In this document: piece after piece, positions 2,768 to 46,200 of the stretch
Position numbering within the stretch: the stretch's first letter is position 1
How the letters are laid out: each line of letters opens with the position of its first letter
Assembly (NCBI RefSeq): GCF_008831285.2
Contig: NC_045147.1
Span: 6,726,334-6,790,333 of the forward strand
Length of the DNA: 64,000 nucleotides
Direction of reading: 5' to 3'
Source of the DNA: Nymphaea colorata
Taxonomy: Eukaryota > Streptophyta > Magnoliopsida > Nymphaeales > Nymphaeaceae
The notes under the pieces: generated by a model
Told to the model about the DNA's origin: nothing
Database searches by the model: none
Seen by the model: only the letters and a program-made list of their open reading frames with translations
Program-made: the position numbers and the translations under genes

Positions 2768-3582
2768 TGATGCGAGCCTAAATCTATCCCAGCTGAGATG
2801 GCCGAGGGAGAGGCTGAGGCCAGGCCAAAGGCTTGTAACAAAGGCGTAAGCCTAGGCAAGGCAGGCCGAAAGTTGGCTGCCGATCAAGAACTGTCAAGGC
2901 CAAAGGAAAATCTGGCCCATCGTGCGGCCGTGGAAGGGCGCCAGCCGAAGAAAAGAAGCGCCGATGTGGCCGACAAGGTCAAAGCATACTTGGCCAAGAT
3001 GGGACGAGCTTGTAGGAGTCACGCCAAGATGGAGATGTTGGTCGTGAGCAGCCAGGAACCTAAGGATAATATCTCCCAAGGCTCAAGGAGACCGAATGTA
3101 GTGACAGAAGGATTCGAGCTTAGGATGGTTAACAGAGTACTTGGAGGTGCTACAGTGGGCGGAGCACCGAACGACCAAGTATGGGCTGAGTAGAGACAAA
3201 CTTGAAGATGGGCACGGCACAGAGAAAGGACCTAGATCCAGTAGAGGTAAAGTCGAACCTAGTGTCGTGTCTAAACCCAGGTCAAATGGAGAAGTCTAGG
3301 CCCGAACCTAGACAAGTTACCCCTCGGGCGCACAAAGCCCGAGTCTTTATCGAACCATGAGGCATCTCGTCTTGATTTCCCTTTATGCACTTTGCTTATG
3401 TTGAGTCATTTTTTATGTTTAGTCTTTAGTGTCTCGGTTCATTCCTAGAACCGGTTCTTTGTAAGCTATATAAGCTCGTTTGTAAGTTGTTTTCCAGAAT
3501 GCTGAATATGAATTAAGAAAGTTTGGAACGAGTGTTTCTCCTTCCCCGTGTGGGAACCCATCTTCTTCCTCTTGCCCCTTCA
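2768..3582 (+). mobile_element. Candidate long LTR (~815 bp) of a Gypsy-like element
   Basis: The purine run AAGGAGGGTGG precedes a TG at 2768, as a polypurine tract would, and the segment ends TTCA at 3582 followed by TGGTGGCGACCGG, which has the form of a primer-binding site. Near the right end are a TATA-like CTATATAAG (about 3464), a T-rich block and AATATGAATTAAG, which resemble promoter and polyadenylation parts of a plant LTR. No second copy exists in the window to prove the boundaries. An ORF at 2798-3193 (Ala/Lys/Arg-rich) lies inside and has no recognisable domain. Confidence 0.35.
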
Positions 3583-4690
3583 TGGTGGCGACCGGAAATT
3601 CCCAACAAATCAGCCTGTGGTTCTGGCCAATTTGAGAAAAGGTTTGGCTTCGATCCTTCGAGGTCACCGGAATCCTCCTTGGGCGACTTCAGCCTACGCG
3701 CAATTTTCCCCGACCAGCGTGCTCCTTCTTCACGATGCAATCTTCCTCATACCCAGAGGAGGACTAGAGGCCGGCTTAGAGAAAACTAGCGGAAATCGGC
3801 TAGTACCACCGGTGGAGAAGACCAGTCGAGAGGCTGGACTAGTACCCTCGGGCGAGAAGACCACCTAGTAGCTGGTTAGTACTTGAGCATCGACTCCGGC
3901 TGCAAGAGATGAGGTAGGTGCCATTAAATCTCCTGGCTCCTTCCCTACTCGAGCAGAGCAAAGGACATATTGAAATCGTCCCTAGTAGGCCTCATAATCT
4001 CTGCCAAAAACAGAGAGAGAGATCACCGGAAAGGAGGATAGACGTCGGTTCTTCTTTGAGAGATATGCCAGAACCCATAGGTAGACGGCCAGTCGGGTTC
4101 TTGTGAATTAATCGGTGGAATTGCTTGAAAAACCTGTTCACGGCAGCAGCAATCTATCTCAAATTGAATCGTGAAATTGTTGTCGCAAGAGGAGAGCAAA
4201 TCCCCCTTCAGTCGATCCCAAAATCGAGCAAAATTGTCTCATGGCTTATAGGAATCAAATCATCATTTGGGTAGAAGGTTCGAAGGAATCTGAAGCAACC
4301 TAGGGCGAAATTCACTCTCTCATTGGTTCAGTTAGGTCTCCCAGGCCTCAACATCATTCTGGCCAAATCTCAGCTCAATCGGACTACAGGAGGTTGAGAA
4401 ATCGCATCTGCCGGAATCCTCATTTCAGGCATTGTTAAACCGATAGAACATGCGGAAGTTTCAGGTGAACGCAGCAGCAACCTGTAGCAGACGGCCAGAT
4501 CTCTACTACATCCCGGCCAATTTTCAGGGGAATCCAAACTCCCACGGCAAAGAATGAGCTCTCGGTCGGAAATCAGTCACGAGCGTTGAAATTCTGATCG
4601 CTGCACTCTTTCCAGCAGAAACTCGATCGGCTCCACTCTTTTCCGCTAGTCCCCATTGTGCCCATGGTAGAATTAATTTCATATTAAAGT
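3583..4690. other. Gene-free stretch, probable retroelement leader and flank
   Basis: No supported gene. It begins at the candidate primer-binding site and holds moderately GC-rich sequence with short self-similar phrases (the word CTAGTACC with flanking CGG at about 3800 and 3840). Short open frames in several phases (for example 3523-3868) contradict one another and have no recognisable motif. It ends where hAT transposase homology begins. Confidence 0.4.
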
Positions 4691-4702
4691 TAGATTTAAT
4701 TA

Positions 4703-6402
4703 TCAAGGGCATCTTTTAGTTCCTCTCATAAAAGTAGTAGCATCACTTTCAACATCTTTATTTAAACCGTCAATTTTTGCAGTGTAGCTGTTATAAAGTT
4801 CTTGCATTGTACTTCTTACTAATGTCATATGTTCTTCTTTTTCTTCTATTTGACAAAAAGTCTTTGAAAAGACAAAGTCTGTTAAACTTAACTTTATCCT
4901 TGGACCTAGTATCGAAGCAATAGCCATCAATATGTTGTAGGAACTCCAATACTTATCAAATTTTTCCTTCATTTTGAATGCCATTCTCTTCATAAAGCTA
5001 GACCCATTTGTAACTCCTTGTAATAATTATTGAACCCCCCAAATTTCTAAGAAAAATAGGTTTGTTGTAGGATACTTCGACCCTGAAAAAAGAATAGAAA
5101 CATTATAAAATGCTTGAAGAAAAGAACATATTTTTGTACTCTCCCATTCTTCTGCATCCAACAACCAAGTAAAACCAACATCTTCCATAACATATCTATC
5201 AAAAACATGTCTGTACATAAGTGCAACTTCCAATATCAAGTAAGTAGAATTTCATCTAGTTGGAACATCTAGCACCAACTTCTTTTGACCATGCATTTCA
5301 AATTCATCTACTATAACCTGAAAGTTGTAAAGTCTTGATGGGGAACATTTTATGTATTTGACAGCTTCTCTGATCTTACCAAGTTCATCTCTAATTGCAA
5401 ACAAACCATCTTGCACCATTAGATTTAAGTTATGTGCACAACAACGGACATGAAAAAATTTACCGCCTTGGTATAGACTTATACCACTTTCTCTAAAATT
5501 TCTTTCAATGTTCTTACAAGAACATCATTAGAAGAAGCATTATCAACCATAATTGAGATGATCTTCTTTTTTATTTTCCATTCTTGAATATTTTTAGCAA
5601 TCACATTTGCTAGATTCTTCCCTGTATGAGGTGGTTCGACTTGGCTAAAACCAATTATACGCTTTTGAAGTGTCCAAGAATGATCTATGAAGTGAGCTGT
5701 AATGGAAATATACCCAATTTGTTGGTTAGACGTCCACATATCTGTTGTCAAAGTAATGGAAGGAACTCCTTTAAAATATTCCTTCAACTTCTTTTTTTCG
5801 ACTTCATATAATTTTGTGACATCTCTTTTCACTGTTGTCCTTGAAATGAATACCCAATTTGGAAAAGCAAGCTTCATTAAAAATCTAAACCAGCAATGTT
5901 CAACCATATTGAATGCATACTCATGACAAATTACCATCTTTGCTATTATTATCTCTCTTATCTTTTCAGGATCAAGTTTGGAACCCTTACTCATTGCTTC
6001 CTTTGTAAGGCCTGAAACTTCACTAATCCCAAAGCTCAAAGTATTTTGCCTCAAACTACTAGGATGCATAAGACACTTATATCTTTTCATCGATGATGTA
6101 CTCCCTCCTGAACTTATAACAAATGTTGTTTTACAATACTTGCATCTACCTTTTTTGACACCACCCACAATTACTTCTTCAAAATCATTCCAAACTGAAG
6201 AAGTTCTTGCCCTTTGTCTTTTCAGACCACCCACAGTTACATTCTCATTTTCAACAAACCTTGTATTAGTAGGATCTAAACTGTCATGAGTTATAGATTG
6301 TTGTGTAGAGCTTCCTACATTACGTGGTTCTGTTGAACATGCTCCTGAACTGCATAGTACTTGTTTGTCTTTACTAATAATATTTTCTCTCGGTGAAGAC
6401 AT
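4703..6402 (-). pseudogene. hAT-family transposase (BED zinc finger, RICESLEEPER-like), broken
   Basis: Read on the minus strand, the first 307 codons (6402-5479) hold a BED-type zinc finger (SSVWNDFEEV...CKYC) and the start of the hAT catalytic region (TLTTDMWTSNQQIGYISITAHFI, then MVDNASSND). Homology resumes in another frame after a frameshift near 5478 with HVRCCAHNLNLMVQDGL. The conserved TRWNSTY motif carries TGG to TGA at 5252-5254, and another in-frame stop lies near 5027. The linker region continues to about 4703. The C-terminal hAT dimerisation domain is absent, so the copy is truncated as well as interrupted. I could not identify its terminal inverted repeats or an 8-bp target duplication. 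A functional product is excluded. Confidence 0.88.
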
Positions 6403-6948
6403 TCTTCTTCTGTAGATAAAAGGACTAATCTGTAATACAATAATTACCTAAAGTTATACAGTGCATTTCTTAAATTTACAATGCTTCTTTCATAAAAACA
6501 AATTAAAATAAGAAGGAATTAAAGACATGCAACCAACAACAATGGGGAGACCTACAAATAGATGGTTTTCCATGCTCAAACTTGACAAGCCAGGTTTGAG
6601 GTCGGCATATTCACATGCATTTTGATTTTCCTTGATAAATATACCCAACAACTAGGGTAATATGATACTAGAGAAGAACAAAAAGGATAGAGAAAACATG
6701 CAAGACAAGATAGGAAATAAAATCTGAGCTTGTTAACAATAATTCTAAAGCAAACGTGTTTTTTATTTCTAAAGTAAACTCATGGTGTGAACTCTTTGAA
6801 ATTTATTTCTGCTATTGGAAAATGCAAACCACACGACACAGGTCAGTAAACTGGCTTTTCCTGTGAAAATATCAACAGAGGGTGTTTCCTTCTCTATAAA
6901 TTAAGTGGATGCTTGCCATCCTTAACTCCTCACACTCTCTCTCTCTCT

Positions 6949-6987
<39 letters not shown>

Positions 6988-7687
6988 TACAAAACATGTA
7001 GGGCTTCAATCGTATCTTATATGATCTATTTACCATGTTAGTAGTTTACTAGGGAAGTTTTACAAAACGTGTTTTGTCTATCATTAAGTTACTTGTGTCA
7101 TTTGATTTTTTCACTACTGAAAGCCTTAAACATTCATATTTAGGCAAAAATAGACAACACTGAGCTTAATATTTTTTCCACTGAGTAATAAGAGATGATG
7201 TTATTAAGCAATATACAACCATATCTCACAAGCAAAAGTATGTAGCACTTCTACATTTCAAAGAGGTCTGGAGTTGGACCAATGAAGCATAAATTTTCTA
7301 GACTCTGTCTCGCCGAAAAATAAAGAACAATTTAACAGTTTAAATGTCATGCTTTTTCAAGAAGGCACACATGATCATCCTCTGACAGTTTTATTTTAAA
7401 AGGCTCACAAGTCACAACCCCTAACCCTAAGCTGGATGATTGTAATGTTTCTTTATCAGTCTCAAACTCATGTCCTTTCCCCCTCTCTAAACCAAGAACT
7501 TTTCCCAGAACTGTCCCTCCACACAACCACAAATGGCTGCTCCCTCTATTTAATACTCAAGAGTACCAGAATTTAGTTGCAGAGACAGCTTCAGAGCTAT
7601 GTAATCAAATGCATTAAGCAAGCCAAAACCAGTAAAAAGAAGAAACATAAATGACAAGGAATGGTATGGCAAAACTAGCTACATCAG
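6403..7687. other. AT-rich intergenic stretch
   Basis: No supported gene. It contains a CT/TA microsatellite (6936-6982) and AT-rich sequence. A 61-codon minus-strand frame at 7347-7532 has no recognisable feature. Confidence 0.5.
6936..6982. repeat. Compound microsatellite (CT)n(TA)n
   Basis: A run of alternating CT is directly followed by an uninterrupted run of alternating TA. Confidence 0.95.
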
Positions 7688-8564
7688 TCTTACGGCTGTC
7701 TGTTCTTCCTTTGGGCATTATATTGTTTAGAATCGTGCTTCTTGCTACCTTTCCCCTTCTCTCGCTGCTGCTGCCTCACAGCCTCAGAGGCGTCCCTCTC
7801 GCTCTTGCTGGACTCCTGCTCCCGCCTTCACGCCAGTTACCCCTTCAGCCTTTCTTTATTCTTCCCCTTGGTTGTTCTTCTTCTTCCTCCTCCTCCCAAC
7901 TGATTTTGCCCAAATGCCGCCAGAAATCATTGCTGCTGCTTGCTGCCTTCTCTTACCACTGTTGCCTCAGACGCCATCAATGCTTGCATTTCATATCCAG
8001 TACGTTTTCATTCCTTCCTTTATATCATATGTGTGGAGGCTTAAGCATGTCCAAGTTGAGGCTTCTTCATAGCAGTGGTTTTAATGATTTTTTAACCTTG
8101 AATTGTGTAGAATATGATGAACTATTCTCCCTTCGAGCTGCTAACACAATTCAAGGTTAAAAAATCATTAAAACCACTGCTATGAAGAAGCCTCAACTTG
8201 GACATGCTTAAGCCTCCACACATATGATATAAAGGAAGGAATGAAAACGTACTGGATATGAAATGCAAGCGTTGATGGCGTCTGAGGCAACAGTGGTAAG
8301 AGAAGGCAGCAAGCAGCAGCAATGATTTCTGGTGGCATTTGGGCAAAATCAGTTGGGAGGAGGAGGAAGAAGAAGAACAACCAAGGGGAAGAATAAAGAA
8401 AGGCTGAAGGGGTAACTGGCGTGAAGGCGGGAGCAGGAGTCCAGCAAGAGCGAGAGGGACGCCTCTGAGGCTGTGAGGCAGCAGCAGCGAGAGAAGGGGA
8501 AAGGTAGCAAGAAGCACGATTCTAAACAATATAATGCCCAAAGGAAGAACAGACAGCCGTAAGA
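7688..8564. repeat. Near-perfect inverted repeat, 421-bp arms, 35-nt spacer
   Basis: The left arm 7688-8108 and the right arm 8144-8564 are reverse complements with only two mismatches found by eye (the CAATGC/CAACGC and CCGCCAG/CCACCAG positions), about 99.5% identity. The spacer is 8109-8143. Because of the palindrome each arm shows the same open frame on opposite strands (7651-8160 + and 8122-8541 -), rich in Leu and Ser; these are one sequence seen twice, not two genes. The right arm is continuous with the flanking sequence to 9241, which looks like a transposon end, so the right arm may be the source and the left arm the inverted duplicate. A transcript through it could form a long hairpin. 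Confidence 0.95.
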
Positions 8565-8640
8565 AAATCTACAAATCCACCAAAAAATCTCAAAAGATCG
8601 ACACTACAATAAAAACATTTTACTTGGTTCCTAGCGTGAA

Positions 8641-8960
8641 GGGAGCAGGTGCGTCGCAGCGTTTGAGGCAGCAGTAGCGAGAGAGGGCAGCAACGGCGGT
8701 CCAGCAGAAGCGGCGAGAGCAGCAGTCCAGCAGAAGAGAGAAAGCAAACGGCAAGAGAGGGCAGCAACTGTGGTCCAGACTCCAGCGGAAGTGGTGAGAG
8801 CAGCAGTCCAGCGGAAGAGAGAGAGCAGACGGTGGTCCAGCGGAAGCGGTGAGAGAGGGCAGCAACGGCTGTCCAGCGGCAGCGGAAGGGGTGAGACCGT
8901 GAGAGGCTGAGAGCAGCAGTCCAGCAGAAGAGAGAGAGCAGACGGTGAGTGAGTGAAGAC
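8641..8960. repeat. Degenerate purine-rich short tandem repeats
   Basis: Variants of GCAGCAGTCCAGC(A/G)GAAG and GCGAGAGAGGGCAGCAAC recur many times, giving Ser/Leu-rich frames on the minus strand (8522-9034) that I do not regard as a gene. The words resemble parts of the adjacent inverted-repeat arm. Confidence 0.7.
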
Positions 8961-8989
8961 CGAATGGTGCTTGGCGCGCGGAATGAAAA

Positions 8990-9241
8990 AATTTTAACCC
9001 TAAACCGGTGAACCGGTTCCTCGAACCAGTTCACCGGTTCAATTCAATTGATTTATTTTATACCGAGTTGATTCGAGTTTAAACGAGTCGAGTTCTTGCA
9101 ACTCAAACTCGACTCGTTTATTGACTCGAGTTTAACTTTAAGCTCGAACTCGAATCATTTATAAATGAGTCAAGCTCGAGCCGAGCTTTGTCAAGCGAGT
9201 ACGAGTCGAGCCTGAGTTGGCTCGACTCGTTGTGCATCCCT
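8990..9241 (-). repeat. Probable transposon terminus rich in GAGTCGAGC-type words
   Basis: The sequence has ACCGGTTC repeats near 9005-9040 followed by many variants of ACTCGAGTTY and GAGTCGAGC, ending GTGCATCCCTA. Read on the minus strand it begins TAGGGATGCAC, the form of many plant hAT-like termini. The other end and a target duplication were not located, so the class is a suggestion. Similar words occur at 36301-36760. Confidence 0.45.
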
Positions 9242-12200
9242 ACTTAACACACACCAATACATAAGGTGTTGGTGACCTGAGCTAAGACCCCCAAGCAATT
9301 CCAAAATCTTTTGAATGCCATCAAGCTGATAGCTTGATGCCGCATTGTATCATCACAAAATAATTGATTGACCATTGATCCAGCCTAACAACACTATCAT
9401 GAAAATTATTACATATAAAATTAGGATAGTGGATTTGTCTAAAAGACATTTACAAGTTGATTCTAACCAATCAACCATCCATTTAACAAAAGTAATTCCT
9501 AGAACAACTTCCCAGTTTTGTCCACTTCTTATGGTTGTTTAGAAGTCACACATGCTTGACTGAATCATCTTCAAAACAAACAATTTGGTTTCCTATTTAT
9601 TTCAACCAGTCCATTACTTTGCTTGGTTCATCCCATGTTTTCTTGACTAGTACTGCAAACTAGGGCTGCAAATGTTTTGAATCTCGTATGCCCTTCTCAG
9701 TTTTACTGAGCCAAACAAGAGCAGCGAATGTGGAAAATGGAGATGTCCACACATAGTTTCCTGCTTTTCTAGGAATTCACTTCTCCGAAATCTAATGATT
9801 CATTTTCCACTTTAAGGTCCAGCTTACTCAAATCCTATATGTTATTATAGTTTAGAACACCCCCCCCCCAGCTTTCCCTCCCTGTTATGCTTTGGGTTGC
9901 TCTGTTTTACCATGTTATCACCTTGTTTAGAAGAAACATTCTTCATGAGAAACCTCCAGATGAAAAGTTGGTCTACATTTAGGTATAGTGGTCAATACTC
10001 TTGTTGAGGTTGCAGAGTAATCTAAATATGTAACTAAAATATTAAATTAAGTAGACTTATTCATTTATTAGTATCCCAATAAACTTAATGATTATTAGTG
10101 TAAAATAAAGCTAATGAACCTTACTCTAAAATAAAGTTGAGGTTCTTGAAATCGTTAAGCCTTGAATGTTAGTTGTGAAGGATCAAGATAAAGAGTTATT
10201 CTAGAAGTTGGAAAGGAAACAACAAATAAAATCCAGTCATTGTTCTGTTTAGAAAGAACAAAAAAATGTTTTACAAACTCTCGGCTTCTTGTAGTCCCTT
10301 GTAGGCACAGGCTTTTATTATAATTATCCACAACACCGAGTTACAACAGATATTATCCCTTCTACTTTGAAGTAATTCATTAATTTCCATCTTCAAGTTT
10401 GTACTCAGCTACCATGTGATTGAAGGGTTTTATCTTTTGTTTTAGTTATGTAATGAGGAAGAGTGGATACCTCAAACTCTAGTTTATCTATGCCATTGTT
10501 GAGTGCTTTAGCCTTTTCTATTGCCTTGTCTTTTTCATCCTCCCAGACATCTTCATACAAAAGACACAAATGTGGTATGTAGGCTCTAATCAATGCACCA
10601 ATAATTTTAGAAGATGTTACATGTTTCATAAGTAGTGAACATAGAGAGTTTCTTAAATACTTTGATTATCGCAGGCACTTTTCTTATTGAAAGCACATAG
10701 AAAGGATTTCAGCCACGTTACAGAAACAGAAAAGGATTCTACATAGTTTTAGACATAAGCTTTAAGAATACATGGACTTTATTGCACAAGGACAATGTGA
10801 AATTAGGACAATGAAAAAGTGCTTATCATGGTCTATCGTCTATGGGACATGACCTTTCAACTCTAATGTTTTTGCCAAAAAAACTCATGTTTGTTTAGTT
10901 TGATTTACATATACGCTACAAAACCTATAGGAACTTCATTTGTATGCACATAGCTGTAGAGTCTTGAAACATGTATTAGGTATTAGAGCATTTAAGAGTC
11001 TACTGGATATGCAGTTAATTGCTTAGTTAACAATTTAGTTTAAAGAAGGAGGTGTTGACCGCAAAAGACTAGATAAGCATCAACGACCAAGGTAGATGGT
11101 AATAGTGGCCACCCCAAACACGGACAACGTTTAGTCTATTTTACCCTACATTTTTTAGATGGAAAATATTTAGCAACCTAACCATCTGATAAGTAAAACT
11201 ACAAAACTATCCAAATTGGCTCAAACAATGAAAGTACAAGTTCTTTACCAAATGGATATGAATATGAGCAGGCCTTTCTTAGGCCTAATGTGAAAAGGCA
11301 ATTTAGAAAACAATTAGTTATGACTAGTAGTTGGGGCTAGGAGAATTGGCATTTAGTAGTATGAAGAGTCTTGCATACACCTAATAATAAAAAAAAAAAA
11401 GAGAAAGGAAAGAAATCAATAAAAAATTGAGGCAATTAAAAGTAAAGTGTTGTGCTAGTTAATAAAATCTTGAAAGCATTAACATATGCATGCACAATTC
11501 TTCAGTTAGCGAATTGTAGTTGCATGCTTATTCTATTTTATCTCAATGCATGACCCAAAGAAAATAACATAATACCCAAGAAATTGGCGTTACACTGAAG
11601 CGAGCCTCAATGCTATTAAGATGGAGCCAAAGAAAAAGGCAGGCCCAAAAGTGCTTTTTCCCTTCCTGTTTATTGTTTATGCCTACTTCAACACTATTCC
11701 TTTTGAAAAGCTTGTCAGCTTAAATGATTGATGACATCCATGACTTATAAATTGTGGTGGCCTTAGAGCATCTCCATTGAATGATAAATGATGGTCTAGG
11801 GTAACTTGTAAGTATTCTTTTTAATTTTACTATTCTTTTGTCTGTATTGATCTCTAGTCTTTATCTAATTAGTGGAATTCTAGTCAAATACAACAACAAT
11901 TTCTGTTTCCTATTTTAGATCTACTAGCTTATCATACTTAAGGAGCATAAGATTTTTCCATCTTGCTTCTCATTGATTTCCTAAGATATGACAGATGGAG
12001 TGAATGAACATAAACATATTATAACAAAGATCTTGGAAAAAATGAATATACATATATATAAAGAATAAGACTTTGCAAAAAAGACCATGCATGTAGACCG
12101 GGGTTGGTGACCTGTGGATCACCAGAGGAATGCAAGGATAGACAGAGTCATAGATAAATATATAAATAGACTTATGGGGAGGGAAAATCTTTAGAGGACT

Positions 12201-18998: not shown

Positions 18999-19349
18999 TG
19001 TAAGATTTTGGGTGTCAAAGTATAACCCACGTTCAGATTCAGCAAAGGAAAGATAAGAGAGAGAACAAGAAAAGAGAAATGAGGATGGGAGGTCAGATTT
19101 TACATTCTCACACAACCCATTTATATAGTGATTCCTCTACACAATTTACAAGAATCTAGAATGAAACAATCACAATAATCTAGAGCCTAGAGTGAAGCAA
19201 CACAATAACCTAGAGTCTAGAATAAAACAATTATAGAAATTGCAATCATAACCTTGCCTAGATAAATGCATTCAGACATGGTTAGACGTGTTGGATCTGA
19301 ATCAGTAGATGTGTTGGATCTGGATCAGATCAGATCCAATGTCTTATCA
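18999..19349 (-). repeat. 3' LTR of Copia 18999-23525 (351 bp)
   Basis: It begins TGTAAG and ends TTATCA in plus orientation. It is 23 bp longer than its partner because of a partial tandem duplication of the TGTTGGATCTG block near 19287-19325. Confidence 0.92.
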
Positions 19350-21823
19350 TCCACCCTCAAGTTGTATATGGTTTGCACCACGTACAACTTCCTTTTTAGA
19401 AACCAGAATTGTTGCTTCGTTAGTCCTTTTGTCAATAAGTCTACAACTTTTTCATCTGTACAAACATAAATAGGCTGAATCTCATTGTCATCCACCTTTT
19501 GTCTCATAAATTGTTGATCAATCTCAATGTTCTTTGTTCAACCATGTTGTATGGTATTAAAAGCAATGTTAATAGCACTTTGATTATCGCACGTTTGAAT
19601 CTTTTCGCCAATGTCTTCTAGCAAATGTCTAACCCATGTAACTTTAGCAGCACCTGCAGCCATGCATTTGTATTCAGCTTCAGTGCTGAATCTTTCCACT
19701 GTCTTTTGCTTTCAACAACTCCAAGACACAAAATTACGTCCAATGAAAATACAAAAACAAGAAATGAACTTTCTTTGATCGGGATCTCCATCCCAATATG
19801 CATCTATGAATGTCATAAGTTGATGTCCAGCAGTTATATTTCCACTCTTACCATAAACTAAGTCATCTCCTACTGTCCCTTTTAGATATCTTAATATTCT
19901 TTTGACAGCATCCATGTGAGTATCTCTAGGTGCATGCATAAATTGAGATACTTGGTTCATAGCATATATAATATTTAGTCTAGTGAATGTAAGATATTGA
20001 AGTCCCCCAACAATACTTCGATATTGTGTAGGATCTTCATACAAGTCCCCATCCTGAGCACTTACTTTTTGATTTAGAACACTAGGAGTTCCAACAGGCT
20101 TACAGTCAGACATACCTGTCTTTTTCAGCAGATTCAACGTGTATTTCTGTCGTGTCAATATGAGGCGATTATTGTGCCTATCAATCTCCACTCCAAGAAA
20201 GAATTGTAAATCACCAAGCTCTTTCATTTTAAAGTTTTGCATCATCAAAGCTTTAGTGTCTTCTATGTGTTTTTCAAAATTGTTTGTGATAACAATATCA
20301 TCAACATATATAAGAAGTAAAGAAAATATGTTTTCCTTTCAATAAATGAAAAAAGAGTGATTTAGTGGACATCTCTGAAAACAACATTCTTGAATCTTGC
20401 ATGAGAAACTGTCAAACTATGAGCGTGAGGCTTGTTTGAGTTCATAAATAGATTTTCTTAGTTTACAAACTCATGCATGAGAGTCTCCTTTTGTATATCC
20501 TAGAGGTTGTTCCATGTATACTTCCTCCCTCAAATAACCATGAAGAAAAGCATTTTTCACGTCCATTTGATGTAGTCTCCATCCATATTCAACTACCAAT
20601 GATATAATCTCATGGATCGTTCCCATTTTGTTCACAGGGCTGAATGTCTCATAATAATCTTTTCGATATTATTGTGTTAAGCCTCGTGCCACCAATCTTG
20701 CCTTGTATCTTTCCACACTGCCATCAGGTTTATATTTAACTTTATAAATCCATTTTGATCCTACTACATTCTTTTCTTTGGGTCTAGGAACAACTTTCCA
20801 TGTCCCACATTCATGTAATGCATCTATTTCTTCATTCATTGCCTTGATCTAATTCGACGACTTGGATGCTTCCTCAAAAGAAGTAGGTTCATCTTGTTTT
20901 ATCACTTGAGATATAAAAAGCTGAAAATCTAAGGAAAGATTATCATAACTTACCCATCTATGAATGGGGTGTCGCACTTGCACAGATCTTCTAATAGGCT
21001 GATCATAGACTTCAACATGGGAAGAGGTCGGATTGCCATCTATCCTTCTTTTCTGACGAGTGTAAACATGTCCTGAAAATCGACATGAAGCATTGTTTTC
21101 TCCTTCTTTCATAGCTGGAACAAGTTCTTTGTTTCCTTCTATTTGTGTGATATGTGAAGATCCTATCTTATCATGTGGATGGGATTCTAGACTGCCTCTT
21201 GCAAATAACTCAGCACTTACCCAGGGATCATATGATTCCAGTGGTTGACTTTTTCAGTAGAAATGTTAAAGTTGTGTTGGTCAAACACAACTTTTCTGAT
21301 ACTTTGATGTGTCTGGTTGTAGGGTCATAACATCTAAAACCTTTGTATTCATCTGTATAGCCAATGAACTTGCACTACACTGCTTTACTCTGAAATTTAT
21401 TTCTCAATGACGAGTCAATGTGAACATAGCACACACATATGAAAACCCTTAAATCATTATAGTTTGGATTTCAACCAAAAGGAGTGAAGTAAGGAGATTT
21501 TGAATGTAAAACTGACCATGCCATAAATTTGACTTACTGATGTCTGATTGGAGACAGCTAGAACTTGGAATTTGTGAAGGTGCATTGGAAGGAAAGCATG
21601 TCAATTGAGTTGGACTTGAAAAGGAATATAAGAAATAAGGATTTTCCTTGAAGACACACATATTTCCTTGGGTTTCCCCTTTAGCGAATATTTTCTTCGT
21701 TAGAAGATCCTTGACATACACAGAAGAAGAAGTAAATTCAACAGATGAGTTTGTATCATCTACAAGTTTAGAAATGGAAATAATATTCTTTTTGATATTT
21801 GGAGCAAGGGCAACATTTGACAA
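19350..21823 (-). pseudogene. Copia pol remnant (RT and RNase H; integrase core deleted)
   Basis: From 21823 the minus strand reads the pre-integrase region up to SNLWHGQF and then passes directly to the post-integrase FIGYTDEYKGFRCYDP region near 21350. The catalytic integrase core is therefore deleted. Reverse transcriptase follows (WIYKVKYKPDGSVERYKARL near 20730, DVKNAFLHG near 20560, YVDDIVIT near 20300, then 20248-19712 FFLGVEIDRHNNRL). RNase H ends it (STEAEYKCMAAG near 19670, DLLTKGLTKQQF near 19410). Several stops interrupt it. The YVDD polymerase motif is present but the protein cannot be made whole. Confidence 0.88.
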
Positions 21824-40200: not shown

Positions 40201-43200
40201 AACATATTCTCTAATGGCTCTCTTCATGCCTAGCCAAAAGAAGGTGGGGTGCAGCTTGCGATACGTTCCTTCAGCCCCTTCATGTCCCGTTGCATTAACA
40301 ATATGGAAATGATCCAGGAGTATCGCTGGCAGGTCAGTTTCAAGAGGGATAAATATACTTCTGTTGTGATAGAGGTAGGGATGCTTCCATTCATCCCCAT
40401 ACGTCTGGTGAGGGGATGACTGTAATTGATCTTTGATGCACTGAACTGAGGAAGCACGCTGGTGAGATGCCCTAATTTGTTCCCACATGTCCAATTGAAC
40501 CCTTGACAAGGCTAGCAGGGTAGTTTCAGCTTGCTGTTCTGCTGCCCGTGACAGGCTATTGGCAGCACCATTGTCCTTTCCCTTATAAAACTGCACTTCA
40601 AAGTCGAAGCCCATCAGTTTGAAGATCTATCGCTAGAGAACAGGTGAGAGGGTTCACTATTGGAGGCAGAATCTTAAACTGTTGTGGTCGGTCGGCACTA
40701 TGAATTTTCGTCCCATTAAGTAGTGTTAGAATGTATGTATCCCATATGTATACATATATACATTTATATATATCACATATATTAGTCATCTAATATATGC
40801 TTTATATATATATATATATATTTTATATTTTGGGTACTTAGGACACCTATGTAATTTTCACTTTCTTTATGTATTTTTTCTTTATGTATTATTTTCTGTT
40901 TTCCCCTTTTATCCCTCTCCTTTTTCTATTTTTCATAGAGGGAGACTAGTCCCAACGGCTAGATTTCTAGCCGTTGGGACTGCCTCCTCCTTCTTCTCTT
41001 TGGCCCTCTCCTCTATAAATAGGGCAGCTCTCCCATTGTTTTAGGTATGGCTTTTTAGCCTACTTGTATCTCTTTGTGTGATTAATTTAAGTTCTTCTTC
41101 ACCTCTTGTTTGAGGGTTTGTGAGATTGACTTGTTGGTGAAAGCTTCAAGGCTGATATTACTTGAAGAGGTTGCTTCTTTGGGCCTGATTTACATGGTAT
41201 CAGAGCCTCGTCTTTGGCTCTTTGTATTGCTGCCATTCAAGATTGAAGGTTCAGTTTTTATTCTTGCGTTGGAGCTGTGAAGCACTCCAAGTGTTCGAGA
41301 TATTGCTTGCTGCAGTTTTACACAAGAAGAAGAGTGTTTTTGCTGGCTTCTTTTTGGTGATTTCTTGACGAAATCTAGCTCCCTTGGTGGTGAGCTCGTG
41401 GCTGTTGAAAGGGTGACTGGTTTCTATCATTGTTGAGTTTTTATCCTTGCCGTGGACTTCTTTTCACGTGGCTGCCATCTTCTTCATAACTTGTAAGTGG
41501 ATCTACCTTGTTGATTGTGCCCATGGATGACAAAGTCTCTTCTCTTCCTTTTCCCAAACTCTCATCAACAAATTACATACAATGAGCTAGAACTATGGAA
41601 CACTTTATTCGTAGTAAAAGCCTTTGGGGACTAGTTGATGAGACAAAACTTGAACCACAACTAGTCCTTACGAAAGTTGTTGATGGAAGGGCTATGGAAT
41701 TGGATGCAACCGAAAAAGAGAAGGTAATGGCTGAATACAACAAAAAATGGGAAGAATGGAGTGTTGGTCATCACAAAATCATTACTTGGATCTTGACTTG
41801 TGTTGACAATGCTACTAGCGGGCAAATCTCTAAATTAAATTCTGCCCTAGAAGCTTGGGAATATCTAAAGAAAACTCATACCATGAGAGATGTTGCTTAT
41901 ATGCATCATGTTCAACTCAAAATTCACAATCTTCAACAAGGAGATAGATCCATTAAAGATTATGTGGCTGAAATGGATCAATTGTATGATGAATTGAGTA
42001 TTTTTGAACCACATTGGACACAAGATCTTATTCTTAGAGAAAAGCAAATACAACGTGAGAAGTTTTACAAGTTTATCATAGGTCTTAGACCGGAATTTGA
42101 TGGTGTCAAAACCGCTTTACTTCATCGTTCTAAAACACCATCTATGAATGAGGCTATTGCGGAACTTCAAATGGAGGAAAATCGTCTTTGTCTTGATAAA
42201 GAGAAAGTCAACAATGTGCTTGCCACATCTAGGCCGGGGGCCCACTTGAGACCTTATAGACCTCCTCACTTCAATCGTACAAATGAAGGAACAAGGAGAA
42301 AAATTATTTGCTATCATTGTCAAGAAGAAGGACATACCAAGCCAAGATGTCCAAAACTTAGAATTTTTGATAAAAGAAGCAATGTTGCGGCTCAAATTCA
42401 AGAAGAGAAGAAAGAAGCAAGTTCATTCCAACTTGAGCAACTCATAAATGCTCTTCAACCTTTTCTAAAAGGAGGAAGCACACCTTCGACTTTGGGAGCG
42501 ACCGTGGCATCTACTTCTTCAAGTAAGTACTCTTGGATTATTGATTCGGGTGCATCTTTTCATATGACTCCTTATTCCCCTTCTCACTGAATGCACTAAA
42601 AATGATTCTTATTCCTTTGTGAAAACGGTGGATGGTACCTCTCTTGAAATTGATTTTATTGGAAATCTTGACCTAGCTTTTGGATCCAAAATTTTAAAAG
42701 TACCTCAAGTAAGACATATTCCTAAATTAAACTTAAATTTATTGTCCGTTTCTCAAATAGCCGACCTTGGTTTTGATGTAATCTTCTCACAATCCAAATG
42801 TTTGATACAGGATCGGATATCCAAGAAGATGATTGGGGAAGGTTTTAGAACAAATAATCTCTACTACATAGACTTTTTGGACCTTTCAAGACCATCTTGC
42901 AATATCTCCAAAGAATGTGACATTCAAACTTGGCATCAAAGACTTGGACATTCCAATATAGAAAAAATGTCTCATCTTCCATTCATGGAGAATTTTTGTC
43001 AAAAGAACTTTGATTGTAATGATTGTATTAAGGCTAAAATGAAAGCCTTACCTTTTGATAATAGAAATTTTATTGCCCAAAAATCTTTTGATTTGGTGCA
43101 TTCGGATGTGTGGGGACCCGCTCCTATTATGTCAAAAGGAGGATTATTGTACTATGTGATCTTTATTGATGATTATTCTAGGCATACTTGGGTTTATTTT

Positions 43201-46200
43201 CTCAAGCACAAATCGGAAGTATTCACAAACTTTAAGAATTTCTACAACATGATCTATACCCAATTTGGCTCAAATATCAAAGTCTTTAGAAGTGATTCGG
43301 GAGGAGAATTTATGTCAAATGAATTTCAACAATTTCTAAAAGAAAAAGGCATTGTTCATCAAAGATCTTGTCCTAACACTCCACAACAAAACGGAGTGGC
43401 CGAACGTAAACATAGGCACATTATTGAAACTACTAGAGCCCTTCTTTTATCTAAAAATGTTCCCAAAAACTTTTGGGCCGAGGCTGTTTTGACTTCAACC
43501 TATTTAATTAATAGAATGCCTACCAAACTTTTGAAACATATTTCTCCTTTTGAAAGACTTCATTATGTTAAACCTAATTACAATAGACTTAAAGTCTTTG
43601 GTTGCAAATGTTTTGTGTTAAGTGACAAAGACGATAAGCTTTCCTCCAAAGCTATTTGTTGTGTTTTTATTAGGTATTCCGAAACTCAAAAGGGTTATAG
43701 ATGTTATGATATTAAAAAAGATAAAGTTTATGTTTCTAGAAATGTGATTTTTTTAGAAAATGAAGATGGTTTCAAAGATGAACCCAAGAAACTAGAAGAT
43801 TATACTTTTCTTTGGACTAATGATATTGATGATGATGATGATATTGATGATGATTAACCCGATAAAGGTATAGAGGTACCAATTGAAGAAGTCAACAATG
43901 ATAATTCTACTCATATCATCCCTCCAAAAGAGATCTTAGTTTATAGAAGAAGAGACCCCCAAAATCAAGAAACTAATCAATCTCTTCCTAGGAGATCCCA
44001 AAGGCACATTAGGCCTCCTCAAAGATTTGTCTCTTATGAGTCTTTTTCTCCAAAATTTCGAGCTTGTATTATGGCACATCATTCTTTTCATGAGCCATCT
44101 TCTTACCTTGAAGCTAAAGAAGATCCCAATTGGATTGAAGCCATGAATCTTGAGCTTAAAGCTCTTGAAAGCAATGAAACTTGGGATATTGTGCCTCTAC
44201 CAACGGGGAAAAAGACTATTGGTTGTAGATGGATCTATAAAATCAAAACTAGAAGTGATGAAACCTTAGAAAGATATAAGGCCAGACTTGTTGCCAAGGG
44301 ATATGCTCAAGAATATGAGATTGATTATGAAGAAACCTTTGCTCCTGTTGCTCGCATGACTTCTGTTAGAACCCTTATTGCCATTGCCTCTGTTAAACAT
44401 TGGACTATTTTTCAAATGGATGTTAAAAATGCTTTCTTAAATGGTCACCTACAAGAAGAAGTTTTCATGAGTGCTCCCCCTGGTTTTGATCTACCCCAAA
44501 ACAAAGTTTTACGCCTTAAGAAAGCTCTTTATGGTTTAAAACAAGCTCCCAAAGCCTGGTTTGACAAGTTTAGTAGTGTCATGTTTAATCAAGGTTTTAA
44601 ATCTTGCTACTCTGATACTGCCATGTTTGTAAAAACTACCTCCGTAGGTGTAATTGTTTTATTACTGTATGTTGATGATATGGTTATTACTGGGAGTGAT
44701 GATGAAGGGATTATAGAGGTAAAACATTTTATTAGCAAATGTTTTCAAATGACTGATTTGGGAAGACTAACTTATTTTCTTGGAATTGAAGTTGCTTATA
44801 GCAAACAAGGTTATCTTTTTTCTCAAATGAAGTTTGCTAGTGAATTAGTTGACAGAACAGGTATCTCAGATGACAAAGTTGTGGATACTCCAACAGCACT
44901 GGGAGTAAAAATGAAAATTGATGATGGAGAGATATTGGAGAATCCCACTCCTTTTCGGCAAATAGTTGGCGCTCTCTCTTATCTCTCCATCACCAGACCT
45001 GACATTGCTCATGCTGTGCATGTGATAAGCCAATTTCAACAAAGACCCACCTCAGTACATATGGGAGCGGCAATGCGGATTGTCCGTTATGTGAAAAACA
45101 CTATCAACAAAGGACTATTTCTGTCTTCTTCTTCTATATTAGAATTAGTTGCGTATACAGATGCTGATTGGGGTGGAGATCCCAATAATAGGCACTCCAC
45201 CACTGGTTTTTGTGTGTTTTTAGGTGACTCCTTAATTTCCTGGCGATGCAAGAAACAGAATAAGGTATCGCTATCATCAACAGAAGCTGAATATCGAGCA
45301 ATGGCAACTACAACAATGGAGATAGTGTGGCTCAAAAGCTTACTGAAAGATATGGGAATTCATATTACGAATCCTGTCAAGCTTTGTTGCGACAACAAAA
45401 GTGCAATCTATATTGCTAGCAACCACACATTCCATGAAAGAACAAAGCATATAGAGATGGACTGCCATTATGTTCGTGAAGAGTTCCAACTTCCTTCAGA
45501 AAAACATAGATCTCTCCTACGTCCAATCAGAGTATCAACTTGGCGATTTCTTCACTAAAGCTCTCGCTGCTACCAGATTTAATTTTCTCTTTGGCAAACT
45601 TTCGGTTATCACACCGTAAGTTTGAGGGGGGGTGTTAGAATGTATGTATCCCATATGTATACATATATACATTTATATATATCACATATATTAGTCATCT
45701 AATATATGCTTTATATATATATATATATATTTTATATTTTGGGTACTTAGGACACCTATGTAATTTTCACTTTCTTTATGTATTATTTTCTGTTTTCCCC
45801 TTTTATCCCTCTCCTTTTTCTATTTTTCATAGAGGGAGACTAGTCCCAACGGCTAGATTTCTAGCCGTTGGGACTGCCTCCTCCTTCTTCTCTTTGGCCC
45901 TCTCCTCTATAAATAGGGCAGCTCTCCCATTGTTTTAGGTATGGCTTTTTAGCCTACTTCTTGTATCTCTTTGTGTGATTAATTTAAGTTCTTCTTCACC
46001 TCTTGTTTGAGGGTTTGTGAGATTGACTTGTTGGTGAAAGCTTCAAGGCTGATATTACTTGAAGAGGTTGTTTCTTTGGGCCTGATTTACAAGTAGTGCC
46101 TCCACTTCATAACTGCCATAATGATGGCCATGAGTTCCCTTTCATAAGTCGATTTTGCACTGAAGGCAGCTCTCATGACCTTACTAAAAAAGGCTATCAG

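Follow-up and report, generated by a model that had tools for sequence, protein, structure and literature searches.

A 421-bp palindrome inside a 3'-truncated hAT transposon of Nymphaea colorata, probably a local inverted duplication beside captured DNA

In the Mu killer locus of maize the 5' part of a DNA transposon is duplicated in inverted orientation, an arrangement from which a long hairpin RNA is possible in principle. Its description reports about 1.3 kb of duplicated mudrA and two TIRA ends carried, and in plants with effective Mu killer the 2012 study records short antisense RNAs incapable of forming large hairpins (PMC3440606). TIR transposons are also described as carriers of foreign DNA. 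In the animal single-copy Pack-TIRs a foreign fragment with a copy elsewhere in the genome lies within a TIR transposon and is joined to it by short overlaps, 56.9% of Pack-TIRs lying less than 15 kb from their source (PMC8277862), and the transposon transduplication described for grapevine likewise combines a foreign fragment in a TIR transposon with another genomic copy (PMC2528002). Template switching accounts for inverted insertions in which a reverse-strand copy lies between two switch points, as well as for spacer inversion (PMC8604942; PMC7954356); in yeast it is described to homogenise the arms of inverted repeats and to invert their spacers (PMC8604942). Here we describe a palindrome in the genome of Nymphaea colorata that resembles each of these systems in part. 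The palindrome is real and its history is readable, and it is a new instance of known processes, namely capture by a TIR transposon and inverted duplication of the template-switch type.

The window, that is, the whole 64-kb stretch analysed (contig C10 6,726,334-6,790,333), contains no N bases and was compared with a genome of 408 Mb in 783 contigs. On its plus strand a 421-nt left arm (7688-8108), the inverted copy of 8144-8564, is followed by a 35-nt spacer (8109-8143) and by the right arm (8144-8564). A sequence-only reading had claimed a near-perfect 421-bp inverted repeat with about two differences and a 35-nt loop, which is what we find: the arms match at 419 of 421 positions, with exactly two mismatches (7919/8333 and 7981/8271), both of which become G.U pairs in a plus-strand transcript. 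The predicted RNA fold is a continuous stem with a minimum free energy of -871.7 kcal/mol against a shuffle mean of -263.3 (sd 9.9; n=20; z -61.6). A blastn search of the window for inverted repeats (E<=1e-10, length >=100 nt, low-complexity filter on) recovered 7688-8564 as the sole near-identical pair, together with three further inverted pairs of 66-75% identity in frames that look retrotransposon-like by eye. The fold z-score and this search rule out a chance origin. The whole window returned no Rfam family at the gathering threshold.

The right arm is continuous with the 5' leader of a hAT element on the minus strand (8182-9242), which ends in the 5' terminal inverted repeat TAGGGATGCAC (9232-9242, starting at 9242). 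This motif is one base off the TAGGGCTGCAC ends of two-ended hAT relatives, which bear TAGGGCTGCAC...GTGCAGCCCTA at their two ends. Abutting it is a candidate 8-bp target duplication, CTTAACAC (9243-9250, plus strand), with no partner found, as the 3' end is lost. On the other side of the palindrome, 4718-6542 (minus strand) is a remnant of the 5' part of the transposase, which is 90-95% identical to the regions L011, L012, L017 and L028 over 1.3-1.8 kb and 73-95% identical to further copies. Protein matches of this surviving part are named RICESLEEPER or AC transposase, and 40% of its longest open frame (5479-6447) aligns at 95% identity with a Nymphaea thermarum protein named 'putative AC transposase'. 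Pfam gave no match at E<=1e-3 for two transposase pieces of the window, a BED finger in the same frame falling below the cut-off at E 0.035; the hAT dimerisation region PF05699 was detected in the relative L028 (E 1.4e-29), and the corresponding part is absent from the window copy.

The search for intact elements that the sequence-only reading proposed recovered two-ended relatives with perfect 8-bp target site duplications in L012 (5,944 bp, CAAATTAG) and L028 (5,497 bp, CTAGGGGG). In all, both ends were seen in 5 of 20 related 10-kb regions, the others being L014 (3,491 bp, duplication with one mismatch) and L013 and L015 (two mismatches each). The L012 element aligns to the window over 9242-8951, both arms and 6542-4718. 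Beyond 4718 the 3' half of the element is absent, and neither the 3' end nor its terminus or target duplication was found in the 12.7 kb left of 4718, which comprise the first 4.7 kb of the window and 8 kb to its left. Hence, of the "transposon-like ends" claimed earlier one stands, TAGGGATGCAC at 9242-9232, and a second was not found in that interval. Since leader, terminus and transposase homology occur without the 3' half, the window appears to hold the 5' part of a broken hAT with the palindrome between leader and transposase; judged by these homologies, the host of the palindrome is a defunct, 3'-truncated hAT on the minus strand. Within the leader GA/CAG-rich tandem repeats with units of 29-81 nt occupy 8668-8956. 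The leader also lacks a 299-nt stretch of L009 at about 8207, an intron-like gap that raised the question of a spliced (cDNA) origin of the arms; its ends share AG, a 2-nt overlap, and are not GT-AG, so that a small-overlap deletion is likelier than an intron, and we rejected the cDNA origin.

The genome search for the arm that had been called for returned at least 88 matching stretches at at least 40 places among the best 40 of 80 candidates scored. Both orientations are present in only one of these 40 places, the window itself, and palindrome-like arms were seen in none of the 20 fetched related regions; short terminal inverted blocks, 68-74% alike, occur in L017 and L028. As the searches rest on the best 40 of 80 and the best 40 of 120 candidates, the size of this hAT family is a lower bound. 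In L009 (95%) and L010 (91%) the leader runs in right-arm order through to the 5' end without a palindrome, which argues that the right arm is the original and the left arm the copy; further loci carry arm units of about 170-260 nt in tandem. L009 also contains other inverted blocks (3359-5343 versus 6010-9533), which lie within its transposase part and further on, measure 1,227, 545, 217 and 189 nt and are about 97-98% alike. Ten of the 20 regions (L018-L027) have hAT leader units, equivalent to about 330-1254 of the L012 element, at about 700-1570 in hAT orientation. These loci have no hAT end motif and represent another repeat family with hAT leader units inside, four compared pairs being similar over about 2.8-10 kb at 96-98%.

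Between the transposase and the leader lies DNA of non-hAT origin. The captured fragment H1 (6543-7689) is colinear with a locus on another chromosome, C1, over two blocks and 7657-7689; the sole further match of the two blocks, 93% and 95% alike, is at C1:23.835-23.836 Mb (best 40 of 120 candidates), with 36 substitutions in 795 aligned sites (4.5%). The interval between the blocks, about 6746-7053, aligns poorly to C1, and a 95-nt C1 stretch is missing from H1. The other hAT copies compared lack most of 6543-7687, the exceptions being TA-repeat matches near 6930-6990. The fragment extends into the palindrome: its edge is J, the innermost 38 nt of the right arm (8144-8181, plus strand), which equal c1 5152-5189 (coordinates of region L037, C1:23832300-23840299, reversed), and only two places, the window and C1, were recovered with a 131-nt probe that spans the spacer and the inner parts of the arms. 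In window orientation C1 shows H1 up to c1 5102, then 13-14 nt, the spacer as its reverse complement (c1 5117-5151) and J, and past c1 5190 it departs from the window, which continues as hAT leader. In the window H1 is followed by leader (8564 back to 8182), J and spacer, all three inverted, and then by J and leader once more, the C1 resemblance of the left side ending at 7689, with the spacer thus inverted relative to the right arm as compared with C1.

At the 6542 join the 8 nt CATTGTTG are common to C1, L015 and L017 and partial in L009, L011 and L012, so that the short overlap is not full in three of the five relatives shown; the join of J and leader at 8181/8182 has no overlap by eye. Like a Pack-TIR the window copy contains a captured fragment with hAT sequence on both sides and a second genomic copy, and of the two termini and target duplication that mark Pack-TIRs it retains a 5' terminus. 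It differs from those described in the available sections of the Pack-TIR report in this single surviving end, in the location of the second copy on another chromosome and in the later inverted duplication (PMC8277862). Compared with Pack-TIRs and transduplication, moreover, the coding content of the captured fragment is not established here. Pfam returned nothing at E<=1 for four open frames taken from the C1 locus. For one of these frames, a search of solved structures with part of it likewise gave no hit at E<=1, and none of 5 candidate proteins was homologous at E<=1e-3. These Pfam, structure and protein searches do not support derivation from a known gene, nor do they mark the fragment as non-coding. 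L037 also includes a stretch 86% like window 19003-20591, copia-like by eye, which starts about 1.2 kb past the end of the captured-fragment homology.

The C1 copy makes both breakpoints, the spacer inversion and a small loss readable. Because the left flank, the oppositely oriented spacer and J are nearly contiguous in C1, the palindrome points to a local inverted duplication with inversion of the spacer and loss of 13-16 nt, the outcome expected of two short-range template switches. We propose that about 1.3 kb of non-hAT sequence was first gained between the 5' leader and the transposase, copied from or shared with C1. This acquisition is evident from the comparison; its direction, from C1 to the window, is suggested by hAT sequence flanking the fragment at both edges and by the lack of the fragment in the compared relatives. 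Synthesis proceeding rightward through H1 would then have jumped to the other strand at 8564 and run back across leader, J and spacer, until a second switch returned it to J and onward. Such a path would duplicate 421 nt in reverse, invert the 35-nt spacer and lose 13-16 nt, depending on how the overlaps are assigned. The breakpoints can be read directly, and template switching is the mechanism that we infer from them. The overlaps at the palindrome joins, TC (2 nt) at 7688-7689 and A (1 nt) at 8144, are short enough to be due to chance. The resulting structure resembles template-switch inverted insertions in its reverse-strand copy between two switch points and its inverted spacer (PMC8604942; PMC7954356), and differs from the yeast spacer inversions, described as substitutions of 2-5 bp, in that about 456 nt were copied (PMC8604942). 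Earlier the palindrome had been interpreted as an inverted duplication of the 5' part of a transposon, and the colinearity of the right arm with the leader of L009 and L010 agrees with this; the transposase remnant on the other side, the captured 38 nt and spacer within the palindrome, and the inversion of the spacer relative to C1 had not been foreseen.

The arms differ at 2 of 421 sites (0.5%), and H1 and C1 at 36 of 795 (4.5%); the leader part of the right arm differs from L009 at 12 of 353 sites and from L010 at 18 of 351. The Poisson probability of two or fewer differences is about 1e-6 at the H1-C1 divergence and 7e-5 at that of L009. Hence, either the palindrome event is younger than the capture or the arms were homogenised, the same pair of options, recent origin or gene conversion, that the near-identity of the arms had suggested from the start. 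At substitution rates of 7e-9 to 1.3e-8 per site per year, two differences correspond to about 0.18-0.34 My (limits 0.02-1.2 My). Both differences are C-to-T changes at CpG on the plus strand, one per arm, and were gained since the duplication; they are as expected for methylated repeat DNA, which this DNA may well be. As to polarity, the aligned stretches of the 20 regions, some of which overlap in tandem units, carry G at 7919 in 34 of 47 and A in 2, and C at 7981 in 10 of 13 and T in 3.

A different route to the same structure would be fold-back (snap-back) synthesis with a later flip of the spacer, through template switching or recombination between the arms, or an older palindrome whose arms gene conversion has kept similar, in which case the age contrast vanishes and the palindrome may be older. 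Homogenisation of arms and inversion of spacers through template switching are both reported (PMC8604942), and the two private CpG changes are compatible with conversion. However, this route requires one extra step, and no palindrome with an uninverted spacer was seen, the 131-nt probe placing the spacer in the window and at C1 only; we regard it as rather unlikely. We favour, with good though not full confidence, a local inverted duplication inside the defunct 3'-truncated hAT, most likely without a selected role. Taken as a purely structural feature, it is a clean case of the birth of a transposon hairpin, and one that can be dated roughly.

If transcribed, the palindrome would give a nearly perfect hairpin of 421 bp, on which Dicer could act and whose targets would be hAT leaders. 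A silencer of the Mu killer type would be transcribed rightward from the captured fragment or leftward from the hAT 5' end, diced, and directed in trans against hAT leaders. The near-perfect stem of the RNA fold is consistent with this, as are the exact matches of 187 of the 401 left-arm 21-mers to one or more of 27 other loci (at 26 places, L035 lying within L017), with 150 shared by L009 and 110 by L010, and, weakly, a TATA-like TATTTAAT some 135 nt upstream of the left arm (7547-7554, plus strand). On the other hand, five of the 27 loci (L030-L034, compared with 1.5-kb flanks only) share no 21-mer, and the structure is single, apparently young and without sign of selection. The Mu killer precedent invoked earlier extends to the inverted duplication of a 5' part. 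It does not extend to the content of the arms, which in the available account of Mu killer include terminus and transposase (PMC3440606); here they are leader repeats plus 38 nt of captured DNA that end 678 nt from the terminus, the transposase homology (4718-6542) lying outside them. As the arms thus lack terminus and transposase, we rate trans-silencing by the palindrome as possible but unlikely, and a silencer of this design as quite improbable. It is highly doubtful that a hairpin locus built by template switching in a DNA-capturing hAT silences, through small RNAs, both the hAT family and the second repeat family with the same leader units, as an independent origin of a Mu killer-type system. 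If transcribed, the locus would provide a test case for hairpin-triggered silencing from a non-coding transposon leader in an early lineage of flowering plants.

Assembly is known to go wrong at palindromes, and a folded-back read could have produced one. The N. colorata genome (409 Mb) was assembled with Canu from PacBio RSII reads, public under BioProject PRJNA565347, and the available part of its description states libraries of about 20 kb, ample for an 877-bp structure, and removal of chimaeras (PMC7015852). A fold-back read would, however, mirror everything outward from one apex; here the arms end in different sequence (the left at C1-like DNA, the right in sequence that reaches the hAT terminus), the spacer has the orientation opposite to that in C1, and both arm differences are CpG transitions. 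An artefact is thus very improbable. The long inverted arms and short spacer might suggest a separate foldback element or MITE, which can be dismissed given the lack of a second palindromic copy in the 40 scored places (best 40 of 80) or the 20 fetched regions and the position of the arm ends inside larger homologous sequence. Elsewhere, a 463-nt direct repeat, 92% alike, lies at offsets -6187 to -5725 and -44 to 418 relative to the window (L042, 8 kb to its left), and its copies are possibly the two LTRs of an element across the left edge of the window. Window 41586-45558 contains three long adjoining frames of copia type by eye (gag, integrase and reverse transcriptase).
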